The notes beneath the pieces are model-generated. The model made no database searches, was not told the DNA's origin, and saw nothing but the letters and a program-made list of their open reading frames with translations. A stretch of 27,662 nt of DNA from a virus, in IMG/VR virus record IMGVR_UViG_3300031669_004405, positions 1 to 27,662 of that record, one strand, 5' to 3'. The translations under genes and the position numbers were made by a program. This document shows, in pieces, positions 1,039-27,662 of this stretch; positions within the stretch are counted from its first letter, which is position 1, and every line of letters begins with the position of its first letter.

Positions 1039-1964
1039 AAAGTGAGAAACGGCAGATAAAAAAGCGGATAAAAGCAAGAATCGGACTTCCGAAACAAATA
1101 AAAAAAATGGGTGTAAGAGACAAATTAAGAGAGGTTCAAAAATTTAAACCGATTCGTGTTGATTTGGTTGACAGGAATGAAATTAGGACTGGTGTAAAAA
1201 AAAGTATTAAAGAACCAATAATTTATGACATTAAAGATTATGGTGAATATGTGAAACCAGAAAATGTTGATTATGATGTTCTTATTTATATTTCATCGTT
1301 TGATAGATACGAAAAACTTCTAAGAATTTTAGAACAATTACATTCACAAGAAACCAGATATTCGTTCAAAATAATTGTGATGAATGACGGGTCAGTCGAT
1401 AAAAGATATTATTATTTAAAAAATAAATTTCCCGAAATAATTTATTTGAAAAACAAAATCAATGGTGGACAAAAATTGTATTGGGAAACGACAAATAAAA
1501 TATATGATGAAATAAAAAATTATTTAGTATATGCTGTCATTCAAATAGATGATGATTTCATTTTATGTGATGGCTTTATTGATACGTTAATTGATAGATT
1601 TTTTTGGTTGAAAGAAAAAAATAATGCCTATATGGGAATTAAGTATCATCTCGCATCTTTCAATGAGGAAGGTGATATTAGTGATAATGTTTTTGATTGG
1701 AAAAAAACACCACAAACTTTAGATGGAGGTAGTTTATTTGACCCAGAATTTTTAAGGTTATTTGATTATAAACTTCACAATTATCACGTATGGGGGCAAT
1801 TATATAATTATGTCAGGCAATTTGGTGTTATGGTACATACTCTTAGAGAATCATTAGCTTATCATGATGGTAATTTTGACTCAAAAATGTATCCAGATGG
1901 ACGAATAAATAGAAAAATTCATACAAAAAGGTTTGTTAATGATAAATCAGGGAACATCATATAG
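1035..1964 (+). CDS. GT2-like (GT-A) glycosyltransferase with basic N-terminal extension
   Basis: This 309-residue protein is a GT-A type glycosyltransferase. The nucleotide-sugar domain begins near residue 80 (YDVLIYISSFDRYEKL). It carries NDGS at 117-120, as in the VNDGS motif of GT2, and the metal-binding DDD at 172-174 within QIDDDF. A late YHDGNF segment may supply the C-terminal histidine seen in some family members. The first ~60 residues are unusually rich in lysine and arginine and precede the catalytic domain; they could bind nucleic acid or membrane, or be a linker. The last residues (VNDKSGNII) are encoded by a 21-bp repeat that also forms the start of the next gene, so the natural C-terminus may have been replaced when that module arrived. 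Base composition is more AT-rich than in the preceding gene. Confidence 0.8.
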   Translation: MKSEKRQIKKRIKARIGLPKQIKKMGVRDKLREVQKFKPIRVDLVDRNEIRTGVKKSIKEPIIYDIKDYGEYVKPENVDYDVLIYISSFDRYEKLLRILEQLHSQETRYSFKIIVMNDGSVDKRYYYLKNKFPEIIYLKNKINGGQKLYWETTNKIYDEIKNYLVYAVIQIDDDFILCDGFIDTLIDRFFWLKEKNNAYMGIKYHLASFNEEGDISDNVFDWKKTPQTLDGGSLFDPEFLRLFDYKLHNYHVWGQLYNYVRQFGVMVHTLRESLAYHDGNFDSKMYPDGRINRKIHTKRFVNDKSGNII

Positions 1965-1978
1965 AATGAGTTTAAGAA
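1935..1978 (+). repeat. Copy 1 of 44-bp gene-start module
   Basis: Bases 1935-1955 are identical to 9624-9644 (21 of 21), and the following 23 bases match at 18 positions, giving 39 of 44 overall. In both places the ATG inside the repeat opens a protein beginning MINQGT, followed by S or T and then YR. In both places a second frame across the repeat reads VNDKSGN and ends at a TAG. The similarity fades after about 44 bases, and the bases upstream differ. Confidence 0.9.
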
Positions 1979-2805
1979 CAGGACAACAATCTCATAGGGT
2001 TAGTGTCAATACTAAAGAACAGACGTTATTGGCAGGTCCTTGGATTGGGGAATTCGGCTGGGAGTTGTTTTGTTGGCAAGGACATATTAGAACCATTGCG
2101 CCTGATTATAAGAAGGTTATTATTGCAAGTAGAGCGGGTCATGAATTTATGTATGAAGATTTTGCCGATGAATTCGTTCCAGTAATAATTCCACCTAATG
2201 CTCAATCAGATAGTTGGTTTTGTCGTGGTATGCCAGAAAACTTTGCACAGACACTTATTACGAATATTAAATATGACGTTAGAATTCCAGCAAAAAACAT
2301 CGGATTTCTGATGTATGCGAATGGAGTCCCACAAAAAAGTACTTTATTTGGGTCACAAAACTTCATAAAGTTTGAATCAAACACATTGGATAAATCTTTT
2401 GACATTCTTGTGCATCCACGGAATAGAGATTTAGGTGCTGATAGAAATTGGAATAAAGAGAAATGGCAAGAACTTATTAACCAATTATCAGAAAAATATA
2501 GTATTGGCACAATCGGTACAGACGAAGCATTTGAGTTGGAGAATACTACTGACTGTAGAAACGTTTCTGTTCATGACACCGTGAGTCTGATGAATAGAAC
2601 TAAATTGGTGGTGGGACAATCATCAGGACCGCTTCATCTGGCAAGTCTTGCAACGACACCTCATCTGGTTTGGTCATCAGCACACAATAAAGACAGGTAT
2701 GAGAAATACTGGAATCCATTCAATACACCAGTGTATTTTTATTCGAATTACGAATGGAATCCACCTGTCGAATTCATTTACGATAAAATAATTGAAGCAT
2801 TATGA
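1939..2805 (+). CDS. GT9-like (heptosyltransferase-type) glycosyltransferase
   Basis: A 288-residue GT-B protein resembling ADP-heptose:LPS heptosyltransferases (GT9) in its second half. The segment at about 156-240 has strand FDILVHPRN, helix WNKEKWQELINQL, IGTIGTDEA, and then GQSSGPLHLASL at 226-237. The last of these corresponds to the GxSG-P-HxA donor-site motif of the family. The N-domain carries GPWIGEFGWELF (about 33-44) followed by WQGH, a pattern I associate with glycan-cluster glycosyltransferases. I place the start at ATG 1939 and not TTG 1933, because the residues from there (MINQGTSYR) are repeated at the start of the gene at 9628. The gene overlaps the previous one by 26 nt. The window also encodes ADP-heptose synthesis enzymes, so a heptose donor is plausible but not shown. 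Confidence 0.75.
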   Translation: MINQGTSYRMSLRTGQQSHRVSVNTKEQTLLAGPWIGEFGWELFCWQGHIRTIAPDYKKVIIASRAGHEFMYEDFADEFVPVIIPPNAQSDSWFCRGMPENFAQTLITNIKYDVRIPAKNIGFLMYANGVPQKSTLFGSQNFIKFESNTLDKSFDILVHPRNRDLGADRNWNKEKWQELINQLSEKYSIGTIGTDEAFELENTTDCRNVSVHDTVSLMNRTKLVVGQSSGPLHLASLATTPHLVWSSAHNKDRYEKYWNPFNTPVYFYSNYEWNPPVEFIYDKIIEAL

Positions 2806-9623: not shown

Positions 9624-9667
9624 GTTAATGATAAATCAGGGAACGACATATAGAATTAATTTAGGAA
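9624..9667 (+). repeat. Copy 2 of 44-bp gene-start module
   Basis: Pairs with 1935-1978 (21 identical bases, then 18 of 23). It covers the start codon (9628) and first ~13 codons of the following gene. A short second frame from ATG 9615 reads VNDKSGNDI across it and stops at TAG, as the end of the GT2-like gene does at copy 1. Confidence 0.9.
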
Positions 9668-10383
9668 ACTCACAACCTCAAAAAAGTGTGGAGTTTGACC
9701 ACTTAATTGTCACGAGAGGAAATTTAAATTGGGTAGGTGGTGGATTTAGTCCTGCTCACAGCGAAAGAAGAATTCATTTAATGAATCGAACAGTAAGACC
9801 ATCAATCGAACAACAAACAAACAAAAATTTTAAATTCATCAGCCTCTGGAATGAAAAACCAACACATGCTGGAATTGATGGTGAAATAATGGAAGTCATG
9901 AAATCTAAATTTATTTTGAATAAAACATTTACAAAAACACCTGTAATTCATAATGCGGAAATTGTCGAAATTTGTAAAAAACACATTACAAAAAATTATG
10001 TGTTGGTGACTAAAGTGGATAATGATGATTGTTTGGGTATGAATTTCGTTGATGTACTTCAAAAAAACGTTGACATCATAAACTACCCTTATTATTATGA
10101 TATTCTTGCGTTTAGAACATATTATATGATGACAGGAGTAATGGAAATTTGTAAATTACCATATACCAGTATGTTTCTTTCGGTATTGGAAAAAAGTAGT
10201 GATTTTGTTTGTTACCCATATAATTATAAACACACGCAAATCAACAGTGTGCTCAGTGGAAAACATATACGGGAATTAGACGCATTATTTACACAACATT
10301 TAGATAATTCAGTAGCGGGTGCTTACGGTGCGCCAACAAGATTTAATTTAAAACATTATAGTCCTAAATTAACACAACAATGA
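9628..10383 (+). CDS. Putative rhamnosyltransferase-type glycosyltransferase
   Basis: This 251-residue protein resembles the bacterial Rhamno_transf group. HLIVTRGNLNWVGGG (25-39) is the opening strand. RTVRPSIEQQTNKNFKFISLWNEKPTH (54-80) matches the family's 'lPSI..Qt..nF.w....d' line. The metal-site block VLVTKVDNDDCLGMNF lies at 126-140, with D131-N-D-D134. YPYYYDILAFRTYY and YPYNYKHTQINSV are later core pieces. The first 12 residues (MINQGTTYRINL) duplicate the start of the GT9-like gene at 1939, although the two proteins then belong to different folds. That makes the peptide a transferable module, not a family trait. The sugar is not determinable from sequence. Confidence 0.65.
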   Translation: MINQGTTYRINLGNSQPQKSVEFDHLIVTRGNLNWVGGGFSPAHSERRIHLMNRTVRPSIEQQTNKNFKFISLWNEKPTHAGIDGEIMEVMKSKFILNKTFTKTPVIHNAEIVEICKKHITKNYVLVTKVDNDDCLGMNFVDVLQKNVDIINYPYYYDILAFRTYYMMTGVMEICKLPYTSMFLSVLEKSSDFVCYPYNYKHTQINSVLSGKHIRELDALFTQHLDNSVAGAYGAPTRFNLKHYSPKLTQQ

Positions 10384-11210
10384 AGAAAATAATCAATTTC
10401 ACACCAACGGGCATAATGCCAACAAAGGAGAATTCAAATGCACCATTACAACCCAATGAAATAATTGAGGATGTACATCAGGCATTTGAATTAGGTATAA
10501 CATTAACTCATATACATGCAAGAGATAGTAATGATTCAAACACATATAAAACCGAGGTATTTGGTAAAATATTTGATGGGATTAGAAAACATTGCCCCGA
10601 TTTGGTGATTTGTGCTTCTTTATCTGGAAGACTGTTCCCTGAGTTCGAGAAAAGGTCAGAAGTTTTGGAATTATATCCCGATATGGGTTCATTAACAATG
10701 TCGTCAATCAACTTCCCCAAATCGGCATCAATGAACGCACCAGATATGATGATAAATTTGATTGAAAAAATGGATAATTTTGGTATTACCCCAGAGATTG
10801 AATGTTTTGATTCTGGTATGTTGAATTATGCCAATTATTTATTGAGAAAGGGAATCATTAAAAGACCAGCATACATCAATGTGATTTTCGGTAACTTATT
10901 TAATGCACAGGCAGATGTTGCATCGATATCATCGGTGATTAATAATCTTCCCGATGACGTGTTTACCTGTTTTGGTGGTATTGGGAAAGAGCAATTGAAG
11001 ATGACTATCATGGGACTTCTATATGTTGATGGCATTAGAATTGGTTTAGAAGATAATTTTTATTACAACGATAAAGAAAAAACAACAAACATCGAATTAT
11101 TAAAGAGAATTTATAGGGTTATGGATGAACTTGGTCACACAGTATTTAATCACACAGAATTTAAAAATCTTGGATATGGGAACACAAAAATTGGCAATAT
11201 TGGGGGTTAG
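10380..11210 (+). CDS. DUF849 / BKACE-type beta-keto acid cleavage enzyme homologue
   Basis: A 276-residue TIM-barrel protein recognisable as a member of the BKACE (DUF849, Kce-like) family. Known members use Zn2+ to condense a beta-keto acid with acetyl-CoA and cleave it. Visible motifs: INFTPTGIMPTKENSNAPLQP (5-25); THIHARD at 43-49, whose H44 and H46 fit the two Zn-binding histidines; LTMSSINFP (105-113); PEIECFDSGML (138-148); FGNLFNAQAD (170-179); and GIRIGLEDNFYYN (218-230), with R220 and E224-D225 where the family has its arginine, third zinc ligand and catalytic aspartate. Length and residues suggest an active enzyme. Its substrate here is unknown; the context suggests a keto-sugar or acyl precursor. 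The start overlaps the previous stop (ATGA). Confidence 0.85.
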   Translation: MKKIINFTPTGIMPTKENSNAPLQPNEIIEDVHQAFELGITLTHIHARDSNDSNTYKTEVFGKIFDGIRKHCPDLVICASLSGRLFPEFEKRSEVLELYPDMGSLTMSSINFPKSASMNAPDMMINLIEKMDNFGITPEIECFDSGMLNYANYLLRKGIIKRPAYINVIFGNLFNAQADVASISSVINNLPDDVFTCFGGIGKEQLKMTIMGLLYVDGIRIGLEDNFYYNDKEKTTNIELLKRIYRVMDELGHTVFNHTEFKNLGYGNTKIGNIGG

Positions 11211-11847: not shown

Positions 11848-12394
11848 TAATATACATGGTTGGTTTACTTTTCAGGATTTATATTCAGAAATGGTTGAGA
11901 AATTTCCTGATGGGTCACACTTTGTTGAGTTAGGGTCATGGCAAGGTAAAAGTGCTGTATTTATGGGGGTTGAGATAGTTAATTCGAATAAGGATATAAA
12001 ATTTGATTGCATCGATAACTGGTTGTTTGAGGGTGAAATCTATTCTCGAAATTCAGAATACATGAAAATGAAACACAATGCATTTAACATGTTCTTAAAA
12101 AACATTGAGCCATTATCAAAAGTAATTAATTACCATAAAATGGATTCGGTGGAAGCATCTAAATTGTATGATGACGAATCGTTAGAATTTGTATATGTCG
12201 ATGCATCACATTATTACGAAAATGTGAAAAATGACTTAACATATTGGTATCCAAAAGTAAAGAGTGGTGGTGTTATTGCTGGTCACGATTATCAATATGC
12301 TGGGGTTAAGTTAGCTGTGGACGAGTTTTTTACTGGAAAAATAATGAAAACCCCTGAAACAAGTTGGGTTTATTATAAAAATAATTTGATATGA
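11831..12394 (+). CDS. Class I SAM methyltransferase, Methyltransf_24-like
   Basis: From ATG 11831 the protein has 187 residues. Motif I is SHFVELGSWQGKSAVFMGVEI (about 29-49). The acidic strand is FDCIDNWLFEGE. The diagnostic block LEFVYVDASHYYENVKNDLTYWYPKVKSGGVIAGHDY is the canonical Methyltransf_24 second half (VDGxHxYxxVxxDL-x-x-W-x-x-L-K-x-GG). An upstream in-frame ATG (11789) would add 14 residues inside the acyltransferase gene; I prefer 11831, which overlaps it by 17 nt and begins just before the folded region. It is the last methyltransferase before the heptose genes and overlaps the kinase start (ATGA), so it may belong functionally to either group. Confidence 0.8.
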   Translation: MEHYYNNIHGWFTFQDLYSEMVEKFPDGSHFVELGSWQGKSAVFMGVEIVNSNKDIKFDCIDNWLFEGEIYSRNSEYMKMKHNAFNMFLKNIEPLSKVINYHKMDSVEASKLYDDESLEFVYVDASHYYENVKNDLTYWYPKVKSGGVIAGHDYQYAGVKLAVDEFFTGKIMKTPETSWVYYKNNLI

Positions 12395-13149
12395 AAAAAA
12401 CATTAGTAATAGGTGATGGGTGTGAAGACCTCTTTAGGTATGGTACTTGTGACAGGTTAAGTCCTGAAGCACCAGTACCAGTAATGAAGCCAACCAGAAC
12501 TACAGGTAATGGTGGTATGGCAATAAACGTATTTGAGAACCTCAAGGCATTGGGTGTCGATTGTGATATAATTACAAATGATATCAGACCAGTAAAAACC
12601 AGATATGTTGATGAAGTCAGTAATCAGATGTTGTTGCGTGTCGATGAAAAAGATGAAATCAGGGAAATTCTGGCAACTGACTTCGATGCGATTGATTTCA
12701 GTCAATATGGTGCTGTTGTTATTAGTGATTATGATAAAGGATTTCTATCAGATGTGGCGATTCGGTTAATTACTGAAAAACACGGTTTGGTTTTCATGGA
12801 CACTAAGAAAAAAATTGGTGATTGGGCATCGGGTATTGAATACATTAAAATAAATTATAAAGAATTTAAAGAAAATTATGATTGGTTATTAAATGAATTC
12901 GTTGAGGGTGATTTAGTTGTTACAATGGGAAGGAATGGTGCTGTTTTAAACATGACACAAACGTTTTCAATTGAAACTGAACATGAAGTACGTGACCTTA
13001 GTGGTGCTGGAGATACTTTTCTTGCAGGATTAGTTGCAGATTATGTAAAAAATAACGATATTTGCAAGGCAATACGTTTTGCGAATCGATGTTCAGCATG
13101 GGTTGTGTCGCAAAAAGGTGTTGTTGTGGTAAATCCAGAGAAGATATGA
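12391..13149 (+). CDS. hldA: PfkB-type heptose-7-phosphate kinase (HldE N-domain / HldA-like)
   Basis: The enzyme is predicted to phosphorylate D-glycero-beta-D-manno-heptose 7-phosphate at C1. It has 252 residues and matches the kinase domain of HldE (RfaE). GDGCEDLFRYGTCDRLSPEAPVPVM (8-32) contains the near-diagnostic R-x-SPEAPVPV. GNGGMAINVFENLKALG follows (39-55). QMLLRVDEKDE (79-89), VVISDYDKGFLS (109-120), MDTKK (136-140) and LVVTMGRNGAVL (175-186) follow in family order. DLSGAGDTFLAGLVADYV has the anion hole GAGD with catalytic D208. It is about 60 residues shorter than the usual HldE kinase domain and lacks a fused nucleotidyltransferase, which is a separate gene at 14098. The other PfkB sugar kinases are less likely given SPEAPVPV and the neighbours. 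Confidence 0.8.
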   Translation: MKKTLVIGDGCEDLFRYGTCDRLSPEAPVPVMKPTRTTGNGGMAINVFENLKALGVDCDIITNDIRPVKTRYVDEVSNQMLLRVDEKDEIREILATDFDAIDFSQYGAVVISDYDKGFLSDVAIRLITEKHGLVFMDTKKKIGDWASGIEYIKINYKEFKENYDWLLNEFVEGDLVVTMGRNGAVLNMTQTFSIETEHEVRDLSGAGDTFLAGLVADYVKNNDICKAIRFANRCSAWVVSQKGVVVVNPEKI

Positions 13150-13529
13150 GGATAATTGATTCCAAATTACAAACACATAATTGTATTGTTCCAAAGAAAT
13201 GGGGAGAAGAAATTATCATTCATAACGATGAAAATTATTGTGGAAAATTACTTGTTTTTAAGGAAGGTGCTAAATTCAGTATGCATTTCCATATGAAAAA
13301 AAAAGAAACTTTTTACGTACAGGAAGGAAAATTTCTTCTTAAGTACATCGACACAAGAGATGCAACACCAATGGAAGAGGAATTAACTGCTGGTATGATT
13401 ATCGAAGTTCAACAGGGTGACCCACATCAATTGTTGGCTTTAACAAAAGGCATTATATTTGAAGTTAGCACACAACACTTTGATGATGATAGTTATAGAA
13501 TAGGGAAAGGAGACAGTCAAAATGGATAA
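13146..13529 (+). CDS. Cupin-domain protein
   Basis: A 127-residue protein beginning at ATG 13146, which overlaps the kinase stop (ATGA); an upstream ATG at 13062 in the same frame lies inside the kinase gene and is unlikely. After KKWGEEIIIHNDENYCGKLLVF comes cupin motif 1, FSMHFHMKKKETFYVQEGKFLL, with the H-x-H-(x)-E metal ligands. Motif 2 is a shorter GDPHQLLALTKGIIFEVS with the histidine. Single-domain cupins in glycan loci include sugar-phosphate isomerases, epimerases and the C-domain of mannose-1-phosphate guanylyltransferases, and the KxWGxE opening is shared with that group. Its place inside the heptose operon suggests a sugar-phosphate substrate. It might stand in for a missing step such as the isomerase, but I have no motif evidence for that. 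Confidence 0.75.
   Translation: MRIIDSKLQTHNCIVPKKWGEEIIIHNDENYCGKLLVFKEGAKFSMHFHMKKKETFYVQEGKFLLKYIDTRDATPMEEELTAGMIIEVQQGDPHQLLALTKGIIFEVSTQHFDDDSYRIGKGDSQNG
13508..13512 (+). promoter_or_regulatory. Shine-Dalgarno sequence for the gene at 13522
   Basis: AGGAG stands 9 nt before ATG 13522, inside the end of the cupin gene. Clear purine-rich ribosome sites are rare elsewhere in this window, so this one stands out. Confidence 0.6.
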
Positions 13530-13809
13530 AAATTACACAAAACCACACGACAAGGATTACAAAGACACGCCAGAAGATTACCTATGGCTTGTAATGGCAT
13601 TTGGAAGGGCATTAAGTGCAATGCTTGGTGATGGGCAAGGTATCTTGATTGATATGAAAGCCGATGCATTAAAAATAAGACCAGAAGCAAAGCGTGTTGT
13701 GGTTTTTAATGATGGTAAAATGATTAGGGTTGTTGATGCCAGTGAACGCACTGACCTCAAAGACGGTGATAGGATTCAGATGATTGATAAAAACTTTATT
13801 TCGAACTGA
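13522..13809 (+). CDS. Small protein of unknown function in the heptose operon
   Basis: A 95-residue soluble protein that I do not recognise. It has a hydrophilic N-terminus rich in D and K (1-18), a helix YLWLVMAFGRALSAMLGDGQG (20-40), and then strand-rich residues (LIDMKADALKIRPEAKRVVVFNDGKMIRVVDA) ending with LKDGDRIQMIDKNF. No catalytic motif is visible. A good Shine-Dalgarno (AGGAG, 9 nt upstream) marks the start. It overlaps the cupin gene by 8 nt and the HAD gene by a single base (TGATG). The tight coupling on both sides implies a role with the heptose enzymes or simple co-expression. Confidence 0.7.
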   Translation: MDKNYTKPHDKDYKDTPEDYLWLVMAFGRALSAMLGDGQGILIDMKADALKIRPEAKRVVVFNDGKMIRVVDASERTDLKDGDRIQMIDKNFISN

Positions 13810-14096
13810 TGTTGATTTACTGTGATGTTGACGGTACAATATGTACAACCGAGGGTGGTTACGACAATGCGAAACCAATTCCAGAGAATATAGCCAAAAT
13901 CAATAAACTGTTTGACGAAGGTAATATCATAGTTTACTGGACTGCCAGAGGCGGTAATACTGGCAAGGATTGGACGGAACTCACTGGACAACAACTTGTT
14001 GCGTGGGGTTGCCGATTTCACGATGTTATTATGAGACAGAAACCCGCATTTGATTTATTGATTGATGACAAGAGTAAACGAATAGAAGAAATTTAA
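13809..14096 (+). CDS. Small HAD-superfamily phosphatase, capsule-type (EcbF/BcbF-like)
   Basis: This 95-residue protein is a minimal HAD phosphatase. Motif I is IYCDVDGTICTT with nucleophile D6 and acid D8, motif II is IVYWTARGG (T/A-R) and the C-terminal motif is LLIDDKSKR with the Mg-binding acidic pair. Its pattern DGTICTTEGGYDNAKPIPENIAKINKLFDEG is close to the small capsule-biosynthesis phosphatases of the EcbF-BcbF group. Between a heptose kinase and a heptose-1-phosphate nucleotidyltransferase, the expected missing reaction is removal of the 7-phosphate (GmhB), which is also HAD chemistry. GmhB is about 180 residues and has a zinc loop that is absent here, so this would be a substitute, not a GmhB orthologue. 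Function inferred. Confidence 0.75.
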   Translation: MLIYCDVDGTICTTEGGYDNAKPIPENIAKINKLFDEGNIIVYWTARGGNTGKDWTELTGQQLVAWGCRFHDVIMRQKPAFDLLIDDKSKRIEEI

Positions 14097-14097
14097 T

Positions 14098-14529
14098 ATG
14101 AATATCTGGGTAAACGGATGCTTTGACATCTTACATACAGGACATCTTGACTTATTTTGGTACGCCAAATTATATGGTGTTGAGGGTCTTGGGTATCACG
14201 AAGCCATGAAGGTGAATAAACTTTATGTTGGTATTGATACCGATGAAAGGGTTAAGATGCTGAAAGGTGACAGTAGACCGATAAACGATGCCCATGATAG
14301 GGCGAAAATGCTCAGTAATTTAAAAATGATTGACAGCGTTGTTATATTTCATGATGACGATGAAATGCGATATTTTATAACATCTTTTAATACTGATTAT
14401 TTAATGGTGGGTGACCATTACAGGGATAAAGTTGTAATTGGTGCTGAGTGTGCAAAGTCTGGGGTTATTTACTATCCTACAGATGAGAGGTCAAGTACAG
14501 GCATTATTGAAAAAATAAAGAAACTATGA
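14098..14529 (+). CDS. hldC: Heptose-1-phosphate nucleotidyltransferase (HldE C-domain / HldC-like)
   Basis: A 143-residue nucleotidyltransferase of the cytidylyltransferase-like fold. WVNGCFDILHTGHLDLFWYAK has the HxGH motif at 13-16, binding the ATP phosphates. LYVGIDTDERVKMLKGDSRPINDAHDRAKMLSNLKMIDSVVIF matches the GlcE-type block of HldE. DYLMVGDHYRDKVVIGAE and RSSTGIIEKIKKL close it, with the S-T-G-I motif of the family. It should join AMP from ATP to heptose 1-phosphate to give ADP-heptose. Other members (glycerol-3-phosphate or phosphoethanolamine cytidylyltransferases) share the fold, but the kinase, HAD and epimerase neighbours favour heptose. It begins 1 nt after the HAD stop and overlaps the epimerase start (ATGA). 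Confidence 0.85.
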   Translation: MNIWVNGCFDILHTGHLDLFWYAKLYGVEGLGYHEAMKVNKLYVGIDTDERVKMLKGDSRPINDAHDRAKMLSNLKMIDSVVIFHDDDEMRYFITSFNTDYLMVGDHYRDKVVIGAECAKSGVIYYPTDERSSTGIIEKIKKL

Positions 14530-15491
14530 TTGTAGTTACAGGCGGTGCAGGTTTTATTGGTCAGAATTTAGTTAATAAATTAATTGAATTGGGACATGAA
14601 AATATTGTTGTTATCGATAATAATATTAATAGGTCGATTGAGAAGTATTTTGGTGTTAAATATATGACCGTTGAAGATTCGTACCTCTGGCTTGAGTTCA
14701 ACCGTTATGACATTGATGTTGTTTATCATCTGGGCGCACGTACTGATACTATGGAGAAGGACGAGAAGATTTTCGAACGTCTTAATCTGAATTACAGTAA
14801 GTTGATTTGGAATTTCTGTAGTGATTACGATATTTCTTTGATTTATGCCAGCAGTGCTGCTACTTATGGTGATGGAGAAGACGGGTTTGATGACGAAGAA
14901 CCCATTCTTAATTTAAAACCGTTAAATCCCTATGGTGAATACAAACACTATTTTGACATGTACGCCCTTGGTAACTCAATTGGTGATAAGAAGTATCAAC
15001 CATCGTTCTGGACAGGATTGAAGTTCTTCAATGTTTATGGAAACCATGAAGAACATAAAGGTGCAATGGCATCGGTTATCTGGCATTTCTACCATCAAAT
15101 AAAAGAAACTGGTGCTGTGAAACTATTTAAATCACATGTTGATTTTTGTGAAGACGGTGAACAAAAACGTGATTTTATTCACGTTTCTGATATCATAAAT
15201 GTGATGATTTTACTTTATGACATCAGACATATTGTGCCTTCAGACATCTATAATCTGGGTACAGGACAAGCCAGAACATACAACGATTTGGCAAAAGCAA
15301 TTTTTAAAAGTTTAGGAAAACAAGAGAATATATCATATATTGACACCCCTTTGGAAATCAGGGATAGTTACCAATACTACACCAGAGCTAAAATGGATAA
15401 ACTACTTGAAACTATTTCGGGGTACAATTTTCTTACGTTGGAAGAAGGTATTGATTTGTATATAAAACTATTAGAATATGAAAATTGCTAA
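14526..15491 (+). CDS. hldD: ADP-L-glycero-D-manno-heptose 6-epimerase-like protein
   Basis: A 321-residue extended short-chain dehydrogenase/reductase. NAD(P) motif TGGAGFIG is at 5-12. YHLGARTDTMEKDEK is the HldD-specific G-A-x-T-D-T segment. SSAATYGDGEDGF comes at 109-121 and the catalytic Y136-x3-K140 pair at NPYGEYK. FFNVYGNHEEHKGAMASVIWHFYHQ and GEQKRDFIHVSDIINV follow, and NLGTGQARTYNDLAKAIF closes. These features, and the length (HldD is ~310), identify it well. The predicted reaction is 6-epimerisation of ADP-D-glycero-D-manno-heptose to the L-form, completing the donor for heptosyltransferases. A 14-nt overlap with the following unknown gene suggests that gene is cotranscribed. Confidence 0.9.
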   Translation: MIVVTGGAGFIGQNLVNKLIELGHENIVVIDNNINRSIEKYFGVKYMTVEDSYLWLEFNRYDIDVVYHLGARTDTMEKDEKIFERLNLNYSKLIWNFCSDYDISLIYASSAATYGDGEDGFDDEEPILNLKPLNPYGEYKHYFDMYALGNSIGDKKYQPSFWTGLKFFNVYGNHEEHKGAMASVIWHFYHQIKETGAVKLFKSHVDFCEDGEQKRDFIHVSDIINVMILLYDIRHIVPSDIYNLGTGQARTYNDLAKAIFKSLGKQENISYIDTPLEIRDSYQYYTRAKMDKLLETISGYNFLTLEEGIDLYIKLLEYENC

Positions 15492-22409: not shown

Positions 22410-22462
22410 TAGCATAATTTAATAATTGAAAAATAACTTTACTGAAAAACCAATTGAAAAAA

Positions 22463-23780: not shown

Positions 23781-24941
23781 ATGGCAAAGAAGACAGAAGT
23801 ACCCAGCAATGCGGTACGAAAACCAACACCAAAAAAGAAATTCAGTCTCGATGATTTCAAAAAGAAAATAGGAGCAGATAATGTTCCATCGAAACCCCTA
23901 TTGTGGATTCCAATTGATGACGCATTGAAGGAAGCAACTGGCATGCCCGGTGTACCGAAGGGATATGTAACACTTTTCCGTGGATACAGCAACACTGGCA
24001 AATCAACTGCTTTAATGCGTTCAATCGCCAATGCTCAGAAAATGGGAATACTACCAATCATTATTGATACCGAAAATAATATCGATGATGGTAATGAGAG
24101 ACTTACTCTCATGGGATTTGATTGGAGTGCTCCACATATTTTAGTTAATAACAAATTCCTTCTCGATAATTTCGGAAAACTTCAAAATAAGGAAAGGAAA
24201 GAAGCAGCAATTGAAGACCTTGCAAAAGCCGTTTATTATTTCCTTGACCAACAAGACGGTGGTAATCTGCCTTTTGATTTGTATTTCGCAATAGATTCAA
24301 TTGGAACACTGAATTGTATTGCTACAATTGATGCTGCGGTGAAAGAAACTGGACAGAATAACATGTGGAATGCGGGTGCTTACGAAAAAGCATTTATGTC
24401 AATACTAAATAACTCAATTCCAAATAGTAGGAAAATTGATAGTCAATATACAAATACTATTGGTGCTGTTCAAAAAATCTGGTACGACAGTATGAATAAA
24501 GTCGTGAAACACAAAGGTGGTGAAACTTGGTTCTTTGGTGCAAGAATGATTTATAATTTCGGTGGTATCATAACTCATGGAACTAAGAGAGTTACTGCTG
24601 CAAGTAAATCACGTGACGTTAACTTCGGATTCGAAAACAAAGTTAATATAGCCAAGAATCATGTTGATGGTGCATTGGGTGGAATTTCATTAGAAGGTAA
24701 GATTGCATCTACTCCACATGGATTTATATATGCAGATGAAAATGGTATTAAAGAATATAAAAAGAAAAACATTCTTCATTTCCGTAACATACTTGGTGAT
24801 GACACTCTAACTGCCGAAGACATCATAATCCAATCCAAAGAAATGGACGATGAAGGAAATGTTATCGAAAAAAGTAAAATAACCATTGGTGACGATTCAG
24901 TGACAACTAATATCAACAATGCAGAGGAAACTGAGGAATGA
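23781..24941 (+). CDS. uvsX: UvsX-like RecA-family recombinase
   Basis: A 386-residue strand-exchange ATPase like T4 UvsX. The Walker A motif GYSNTGKS is at 68-75. ILPIIIDTENNID follows (about 92-104), and the Walker B strand is PFDLYFAIDSIGTL near 170-178. Loops typical of UvsX follow: NNMWNAGAYEKAF and later GGETWFFGARMIYNFGGIITHGTKRVTA. The C-terminal quarter contains KIASTPHGFIYADENGIKEYKKKN, and the last ~30 residues are acidic. In T4, UvsX acts with UvsY and gp32 in recombination-dependent replication; gp32 is just upstream here. It starts 20 nt after a terminator with no recognisable promoter between, and its stop overlaps the nuclease start (ATGA). Confidence 0.9.
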   Translation: MAKKTEVPSNAVRKPTPKKKFSLDDFKKKIGADNVPSKPLLWIPIDDALKEATGMPGVPKGYVTLFRGYSNTGKSTALMRSIANAQKMGILPIIIDTENNIDDGNERLTLMGFDWSAPHILVNNKFLLDNFGKLQNKERKEAAIEDLAKAVYYFLDQQDGGNLPFDLYFAIDSIGTLNCIATIDAAVKETGQNNMWNAGAYEKAFMSILNNSIPNSRKIDSQYTNTIGAVQKIWYDSMNKVVKHKGGETWFFGARMIYNFGGIITHGTKRVTAASKSRDVNFGFENKVNIAKNHVDGALGGISLEGKIASTPHGFIYADENGIKEYKKKNILHFRNILGDDTLTAEDIIIQSKEMDDEGNVIEKSKITIGDDSVTTNINNAEETEE

Positions 24942-26790: not shown

Positions 26791-27662
26791 ATGACGGAAA
26801 ATACAGAAAACACATTAACAGCATATCTTGGTCCTGAATTTCAACAACGCCTAATGTGGCAATTGTTGGTTGAACCAGAGTTTGCAGAAAAAATAATACC
26901 AGACTTAGCAATCGAATATTTTGATGACCCAAATCATAAGAGGTTATTCATTATCATGTTGGAATATTTCAAGGAGTTTGATAAAGTTCCAAATCTTCAG
27001 AATCAAAGCATTCATCAAGCAATTAATAAATATAAGACACCAAATAATCCTATTGAAGAAGAATCGTTATTTGCTGTTATCAAACGTATTGAACTCTGGA
27101 ACGAGAGAATCATTAATAAGCAAATGCTTTATGATGGTGATGTTGTACAGATATCGACCAATTCCTTTATTAAACAACAGGAATATCGTAAATTGGCTGA
27201 AAACGTTCTTGATAAAGTCAAGAATGGTGAGATAAAAAACAAATATGTTATTGCTGCAATAGAAGACCGATTCCAAAAAATATCACATATTGGTGAAACC
27301 GATGACGATTCCGAGTCACTTACTGAAGGAATTAGAAAAGCACTAAGAAAAGAATTCCGAGAAACCATACCAACGGGCATTGGTGCAATTGACGTATTAA
27401 CTGGTGGTGGATTAGGTAAGGGTGAAATCGGTGTCATTCTCACACCATCAGGTGTTGGTAAAACAACTGCACTTACAATTATCGCAAATACCGCATATGA
27501 ATGTGAAAAAAATGTTGCTCAGATTGTCTTTGAGGACACCAAAGACCAGATTAAACGTAAACATTTTACAATTTGGGCAGAGTCGGCACTAAGTAGATTG
27601 AATGAGGACGAAGAGAATGAACGAGTTTTTAAAATTTCCGATGATAAAGCCAGAGAAATGGA
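26791..27662 (+). CDS. 41: DnaB-like replicative helicase (gp41-type), 3' end outside the window
   Basis: The frame is open from ATG 26791 to the window edge; 290 residues are visible. The N-terminal half (about 8-140) is a helical domain (AYLGPEFQQRLMWQLLVEPEFAEKI; AVIKRIELWNERIINKQML), as in the DnaB/gp41 N-domain. It lacks a recognisable primase or zinc motif. FRETIPTGIGAIDVLTGGGLGKGEIGVILTPSGVGKTTALTIIA then opens the RecA-like motor domain, with a Walker A TPSGVGKTT (about 218-226), and VAQIVFEDTKDQIKRKHF follows. In T4, gp41 is a replicative hexameric helicase loaded by gp59. Position after gene 32, uvsX and rnh supports the assignment. ATG 26791 begins 15 nt after a hairpin T run, without a clear ribosome site. 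Confidence 0.85.
   Translation, partial: MTENTENTLTAYLGPEFQQRLMWQLLVEPEFAEKIIPDLAIEYFDDPNHKRLFIIMLEYFKEFDKVPNLQNQSIHQAINKYKTPNNPIEEESLFAVIKRIELWNERIINKQMLYDGDVVQISTNSFIKQQEYRKLAENVLDKVKNGEIKNKYVIAAIEDRFQKISHIGETDDDSESLTEGIRKALRKEFRETIPTGIGAIDVLTGGGLGKGEIGVILTPSGVGKTTALTIIANTAYECEKNVAQIVFEDTKDQIKRKHFTIWAESALSRLNEDEENERVFKISDDKAREM

Follow-up and report, generated by a model that had tools for sequence, protein, structure and literature searches.

The 27,662-nucleotide IMG/VR virus record IMGVR_UViG_3300031669_004405, analysed over its whole length and called the window below, carries six genes at 12391–15491 that run in one direction and form a single operon (Table 1). Together these genes probably encode a complete phage pathway to ADP-heptose, in which a small cupin would act as a non-homologous replacement for the isomerase GmhA, common to phages and some bacteria. 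The basis of this interpretation is gene content, protein families, linkage, gene fusions and complementary occurrence. An earlier sequence-only reading had placed a kinase, a HAD phosphatase, a nucleotidyltransferase and an HldD-like epimerase here, and all four enzymes were found at the positions and in the order proposed; overlooked were the two genes between the kinase and the phosphatase, the first of which encodes the cupin. The statement that only GmhA is absent holds literally, but "near-complete" does not, as the cupin probably fills the place of GmhA.

In the proposed scheme, the cupin, predicted to be an aldose-ketose isomerase of the Mn type with D-lyxose and mannose-6-phosphate isomerases as relatives, would convert sedoheptulose 7-phosphate to D-glycero-D-manno-heptose 7-phosphate, the GmhA reaction. 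The HldA-type kinase would then add the anomeric phosphate, the AfhF-like HAD protein would remove the 7-phosphate, the HldC-type nucleotidyltransferase would add AMP, and HldD would epimerise C6. A glycosyltransferase of the phage or of the host would use the donor, with a host surface glycan or a virion protein as the possible acceptor. The kinase type, the nucleotidyltransferase type, HldD and the order of reactions are shared with the bacterial ADP-L-glycero-D-manno-heptose pathway (GmhA, HldE or HldA/HldC, GmhB, HldD). The phage version differs in having a cupin for the SIS-type GmhA, a minimal AfhF-like HAD protein for GmhB and a kinase without the lid segment. An isomerase is needed because the pathway starts from sedoheptulose 7-phosphate. 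In S-SM2 and P-TIM68, a transketolase-like gene lies close upstream of or beside the kinase gene (L002 5984–7192 and L003 6850–7995) and could supply this substrate.

The best curated match of the window kinase was rfaE_dom_I (126 bits, E = 1.6e-36), and its nearest sequence in the PDB is 4e84, the heptose 7-phosphate kinase HldA. In a maximum-likelihood tree, all phage kinases formed one clade (97/96) inside HldA/HldE, with other PfkB kinases well apart. This clade takes in the fused HldE proteins of three relatives (L033–L035; 295.6 bits to the HldE model), and L033 has fused HldE, cupin, HAD protein and HldD-like epimerase together. The window kinase also keeps 38 of the 50 columns conserved in bacterial HldA/HldE (76%, as against a mean of 43% in the PfkB outgroup), including the signature stretches RLSPEAPVPV and GAGDT. 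The tree position thus supports heptose as the predicted substrate class. The earlier proposal that a phage encodes a pathway to a heptose-type donor is strengthened by this placement and by the fused HldE proteins, and no grouping of the kinase with other sugar-specific families was seen. The separation of kinase and nucleotidyltransferase into two genes was also confirmed but is not an unusual form, given that split HldA/HldC occurs in Patescibacteria as well. The split form is known from Burkholderia. The sister group of the phage kinases is the HldA of TGA-recoded Patescibacteria (G335, G356, G433 and G405; loci L230, L231, L229 and L232), in which the HldA and GmhA genes contain many in-frame TGA codons.

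The epimerase scored 316.8 bits against the ADP-heptose 6-epimerase model TIGR02197, above the cut-off of 274.6. The nucleotidyltransferase scored 88.9 bits against rfaE_dom_II, compared with 42.5 bits against glycerol-3-phosphate cytidylyltransferase, and its nearest PDB sequence is 5x9q, which we take to be Burkholderia HldC. A profile of the phage nucleotidyltransferase set had an ethanolamine-phosphate cytidylyltransferase as its best PDB match. Whereas phylogeny placed the kinase within HldA/HldE, the nucleotidyltransferase tree did not separate HldC from the cytidylyltransferases and was not used as support; the HldC-type assignment consequently rests on profiles, linkage and the phage HldE fusion.

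A profile built from 62 cupin sequences had the D-lyxose isomerase 2y0o as its best PDB match (E = 7.1e-8), with 7nzo also listed. In the D-lyxose isomerase of Thermofilum, H75, H77, E88 and H143 are the Mn ligands and K86 is the proposed catalytic residue (PMC8378251). Residues H47, H49, E54, H94 and K52 of the window cupin match these positions and are invariant in 70 sequences, and the K-x-E spacing (K52, E54) is kept. The AlphaFold model of the cupin has a predicted local distance difference test score (pLDDT) of 92. The likeness to D-lyxose isomerase and to cupin phosphomannose isomerases thus lies in the best profile match and in the retained metal and catalytic residues, whereas identity is ∼25%, the window cupin is one short domain without the insert, and its context is that of nucleotide-sugar genes. 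In its C1-C2 chemistry and configuration, the GmhA reaction equals that of mannose-6-phosphate isomerase, which interconverts fructose 6-phosphate and mannose 6-phosphate. In RefSeq, the cupin carries the label "cysteine dioxygenase" (L001 9047–9403 and orthologues; T4-GC 307, phrog_7851); the sequence and context of T4-GC 307 fit a putative sugar-phosphate isomerase rather than cysteine dioxygenase.

When loci were gathered by the cupin, genes for nucleotidyltransferase, kinase, HAD protein and cupin mostly stood in a row. Among 62 non-redundant phage kinases gathered independently, the 10 kb around the kinase held a cupin in 30 cases, a nucleotidyltransferase in 36, a HAD protein in 25 and GmhA in none. 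No SIS_2 or GmhA match above cut-off was obtained in the window or in 50 related phage records, nine of which are complete genomes of module-bearing cyanophages. For the phage of the window, this search for gmhA beyond the operon covered a fragment of 27,662 bases, so that absence from its whole genome is not demonstrable.

Fusion of the cupin to HldA was found in Patescibacteria, with the cupin first in G053 (L032), G051 (L030), G219, G439 and G455 and in reverse order in G271. The G219 fusion lies above the HldA cut-off (351 versus 345 bits). Where the fusion-bearing operons were read, they also held genes for a GmhB-type phosphatase, HldC and, mostly, a GT9 heptosyltransferase. In G177, GmhA itself is fused to HldA in the position that the cupin takes elsewhere. 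The same exchange is seen between two otherwise collinear operons, L206 (RmlD-cupin-HldA-GmhB-HldC) and L209 (RmlD-[GmhA::HldA]-GmhB-HldC).

The occurrence of cupin and GmhA across bacterial genomes was found to be complementary. HldA was present in 16 of 239 Patescibacteria genomes; four of these have a kinase-linked cupin and no SIS_2 protein, and the other 12 all have SIS_2. When the sample was widened by a class-level sample and true GmhA was defined as at least 183 bits to TIGR00441, true GmhA was present in 0 of 7 HldA genomes with a kinase-linked cupin as against 18 of 19 without (Fisher p = 1.2e-5). Scores were bimodal, with true GmhA at ≥183 bits and SIS paralogues at 84–103; kinase-linked cupins likewise scored 120–178 bits and unlinked cupins in GmhA genomes at most 105. 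In the GmhA-less genomes G219 (1.24 Mb) and G271 (0.82 Mb), the cupin contig is about as long as the whole genome. On the kinase tree, in which some rows are long-branched, five changes of the cupin label are required, of which well supported branches force at least four, and the cupin-linked G063 sits inside a GmhA-linked clade (100/100). These changes and the placement of G063 point to repeated replacement of GmhA by the cupin. The locus L008, from a fecal "phage" (MT838225), resembles bacterial DNA and was excluded from the argument.

The pathway may instead be partial, with heptose 7-phosphate coming from host GmhA and the cupin acting elsewhere, for example by isomerising or editing the nucleotide sugar later. 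GmhA was common in the bacterial control genomes, the isomerase role of the cupin is a prediction, and cupins also stand beside other nucleotidyltransferases. This explanation is nevertheless unlikely in view of the complementary distribution and of cupin fusion to HldA in both orders. In addition, for the cyanophage relatives host supply of heptose 7-phosphate is not obvious, because the lipopolysaccharide (LPS) of the host Synechococcus WH8102 is free of heptose (PMC4515613) and the control Synechococcus elongatus gave no GmhA match.

Several observations weigh against a complete heptose pathway with the cupin as its first enzyme. The kinase falls below the equivalog cut-off of NCBIfam TIGR02198 (126 versus 345 bits) and is designated "HldA-type" rather than HldA for this reason; it lacks ∼35 residues of the bacterial HldA lid segment, which partly accounts for the low score. 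The nucleotidyltransferase likewise falls below the rfaE_dom_II cut-off (88.9 versus 181.5 bits), and its tree did not separate HldC from glycerol-3-phosphate and ethanolamine-phosphate cytidylyltransferases (31/40). In a fold search, cupins of many functions scored alike; given that the fold alone is unspecific, only the profile match and the residues were used. No partner was present within 10 kb in 22 of the 62 kinase loci, and the module is incomplete in L126 and L128, two close relatives; it is therefore a mosaic. Most of the bacterial genomes are metagenome-assembled genomes (MAGs), so that single gene absences may be gaps. Cupin and GmhA occur together in a chlamydial MAG (G050), and G051 retains a divergent SIS paralogue (∼90 bits). 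Some genomes have the cupin but no HldA (G184, G042–G044 and G046), and in Campylobacterota (L016 759–1585 and L017 9971–10808) it is paired with a different nucleotidyltransferase family; hence the cupin family is not exclusive to heptose. These Campylobacterota genomes have neither HldA nor true GmhA, and their cupin pair may make a different nucleotide sugar, starting from a ketose phosphate.

The HAD protein contains the motifs DxDGT, T, K and DD, and its AF2 model has a pLDDT of 90. By both sequence and fold its nearest relative is 9iqw, AfhF of phage HY126 (36% identity), the title of which is D-arabinose 1,5-diphosphate phosphatase. Identification as GmhB was rejected, since the 95-residue protein has no NCBIfam GmhB match and no Zn loop and AfhF is nearest. 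The relationship to AfhF supports a role as a sugar 1,n-bisphosphate phosphatase, and the protein may still perform the GmhB reaction. Proteins labelled "phosphoheptose isomerase" in RefSeq (T4-GC 306, phrog_1238) were considered as the missing GmhA and discarded, as they are HAD proteins of 95–115 residues with no SIS match. This label sits on AfhF-family HAD proteins at L001 8722–9066 (YP_214542.1), L002, L359 4983–5369 and others, and is likely a propagated misannotation.

The affinity to AfhF raises a different sugar as a second alternative, namely a pentose donor (e.g. from D-arabinose 5-phosphate) for DNA glycosylation, as in phages of the RB69/HY126 type. RB69 DNA is arabinosylated (PMC6024577). 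The closest characterised relative of the window HAD protein is a D-arabinose 1,5-bisphosphate phosphatase, and in RB69 a homologous HAD protein (68 bits) adjoins arabinose-5-phosphate isomerase; the two modules share the logic of isomerase, kinase, phosphatase and nucleotidyltransferase. However, the RB69 isomerase (SIS), nucleotidyltransferase (NTP_transferase) and kinase-like protein are unrelated to those of the window, which has an HldA-clade kinase and an above-cut-off HldD, the substrate of which is ADP-heptose. These two enzymes favour heptose over pentose, and the pentose explanation is accordingly given a low probability.

The window nucleotidyltransferase, kinase, HAD protein, cupin and epimerase correspond to T4-GC 304, 305, 306, 307 and 308, respectively, of T4-like cyanophages. 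P-SSM2, S-SM2 and S-SSM7 each contain T4-GC 304, 305, 307 and 308 together, and these have been called LPS genes (PMC3037559). Compared with these clusters, in which the same orthologous nucleotidyltransferase, kinase, cupin and epimerase are joined by the HAD protein T4-GC 306, the window phage is of a different lineage and has full-length HldD. The earlier work proposed no pathway and gave the cupin no role (PMC3037559), and whether the cyanophage "LPS genes" are functional was left open by Sullivan et al. 2010 (PMC3037559). The gene set is thus already known from cyanophages, and the proposed pathway that would explain its grouping is the new part; nothing was found in the open literature on ADP-heptose in phages or on a cupin replacing GmhA. 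Retention of decaying LPS genes as stuffer DNA for packaging length has been named as a possibility for cyanophage clusters (PMC3037559), and the mosaic nature of the module would agree with it. This explanation is very improbable here, as the genes are intact with overlapping starts and stops, the active-site residues of the cupin are invariant in 70 of 70 sequences, and the same gene set is kept across a wide range of phages.

With regard to the use of the sugar, the proposal that the phage supplements or replaces host LPS chemistry is doubtful for the cyanophage relatives. The LPS of Synechococcus WH8102 and CC9311 contains no heptose (PMC4515613), and two phages of WH8102 carry the module; its product in these phages is therefore no supplement to host heptose and would either give the host surface a new sugar or belong to a virion glycan. 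The module of several cyanophages is flanked by tail-fibre or neck genes, a position compatible with a virion glycan though no proof of one. The suggestion that a GT9-like enzyme of the window uses the product was likewise weakened: the gene, which starts at 1933, reached 21.0 bits against PF01075 (Pfam cut-off 22) and matched neither an NCBIfam model nor any heptosyltransferase model. GT9 as a general acceptor enzyme was discarded, with matches above cut-off in only 6 of the 50 phage records. In L036, GT9 adjoins the cupin and matches both LPS and protein heptosyltransferase models.

Most genes of the operon overlap their neighbours through stop and start codons, with ATGA or TGATG junctions at 13146–13149, 13522–13529, 13807–13811 and 14526–14529. 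The module recurs in another IMG/VR record (L129), where everything from the C-terminal half of the kinase onward is 100% identical, and is hence no assembly accident. The 95-residue protein encoded between the cupin and the HAD protein had no match in family searches; a counterpart with 68% identity stands beside the cupin in the related phage L126 (8947–9231).

Table 1. Heptose operon and GT9-like gene of the window
Feature	Position	Strand	Basis or remark
HldA-type sugar-phosphate kinase, PfkB family	12391..13149	+	252 aa; rfaE_dom_I, PDB, tree, signature columns
Cupin, proposed aldose-ketose isomerase replacing GmhA	13146..13529	+	Cupin_2 match, profile, residues, fusions, GmhA complementarity
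95-aa protein without family match	13522..13809	+	Same operon
Minimal HAD phosphatase, proposed heptose 1,7-bisphosphate 7-phosphatase (AfhF-like, not GmhB)	13809..14096	+	HAD motifs; 95 aa
HldC-type nucleotidyltransferase (HxGH), proposed heptose-1-phosphate adenylyltransferase	14098..14529	+	rfaE_dom_II profile
ADP-L-glycero-D-manno-heptose 6-epimerase (HldD)	14526..15491	+	TIGR02197 above cut-off
Weak GT9-like protein, possible user of the sugar donor	1933..2805	+	PF01075 under cut-off

Open reading frame translations suggested T4-like genes elsewhere in the window, namely a gp32-like gene at 22454, UvsX at 23781, RNase H at 24938 and a gp41-like helicase at 26791, and the 27,662-base record is on this evidence taken to be a fragment of a T4-like phage. 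Ahead of the operon lies a cluster of glycosyltransferase, methyltransferase and other sugar genes, within which 10380–11210 encodes a beta-keto acid cleavage enzyme (BKACE, 214 bits), an unusual component of a phage sugar cluster. A 53-nt near-repeat (83%) at 1935–1987 and 9624–9676 spans the starts of two unrelated glycosyltransferase genes and encodes the N terminus MINQGT(S/T)YR(M/I)(S/N)L in both. It was not found in the other loci compared and may mark a site of recombination or cassette joining.

Synthesis of glycero-manno-heptose is regarded as beginning with GmhA, which also counts as an antibacterial target. It is somewhat more likely than not that nature has a second sedoheptulose-7-phosphate isomerase, unrelated to GmhA in structure. 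This enzyme, a small metal cupin, would have taken the place of GmhA repeatedly in the heptose operons of bacteria. Among T4-like phages it would usually catalyse the first step of a complete ADP-heptose pathway, also in phages of cyanobacteria with heptose-free LPS, where the phage would add sugar chemistry new to the host. If this is true, genomes scored as lacking a heptose pathway may have one, and the enzyme family annotated today as "cysteine dioxygenase" or "cupin" would gain a defined reaction. Widely copied labels, such as "phosphoheptose isomerase" on the HAD phosphatase, would be corrected, and the role of the cyanophage "LPS genes" (PMC3037559) would become a directly testable question.

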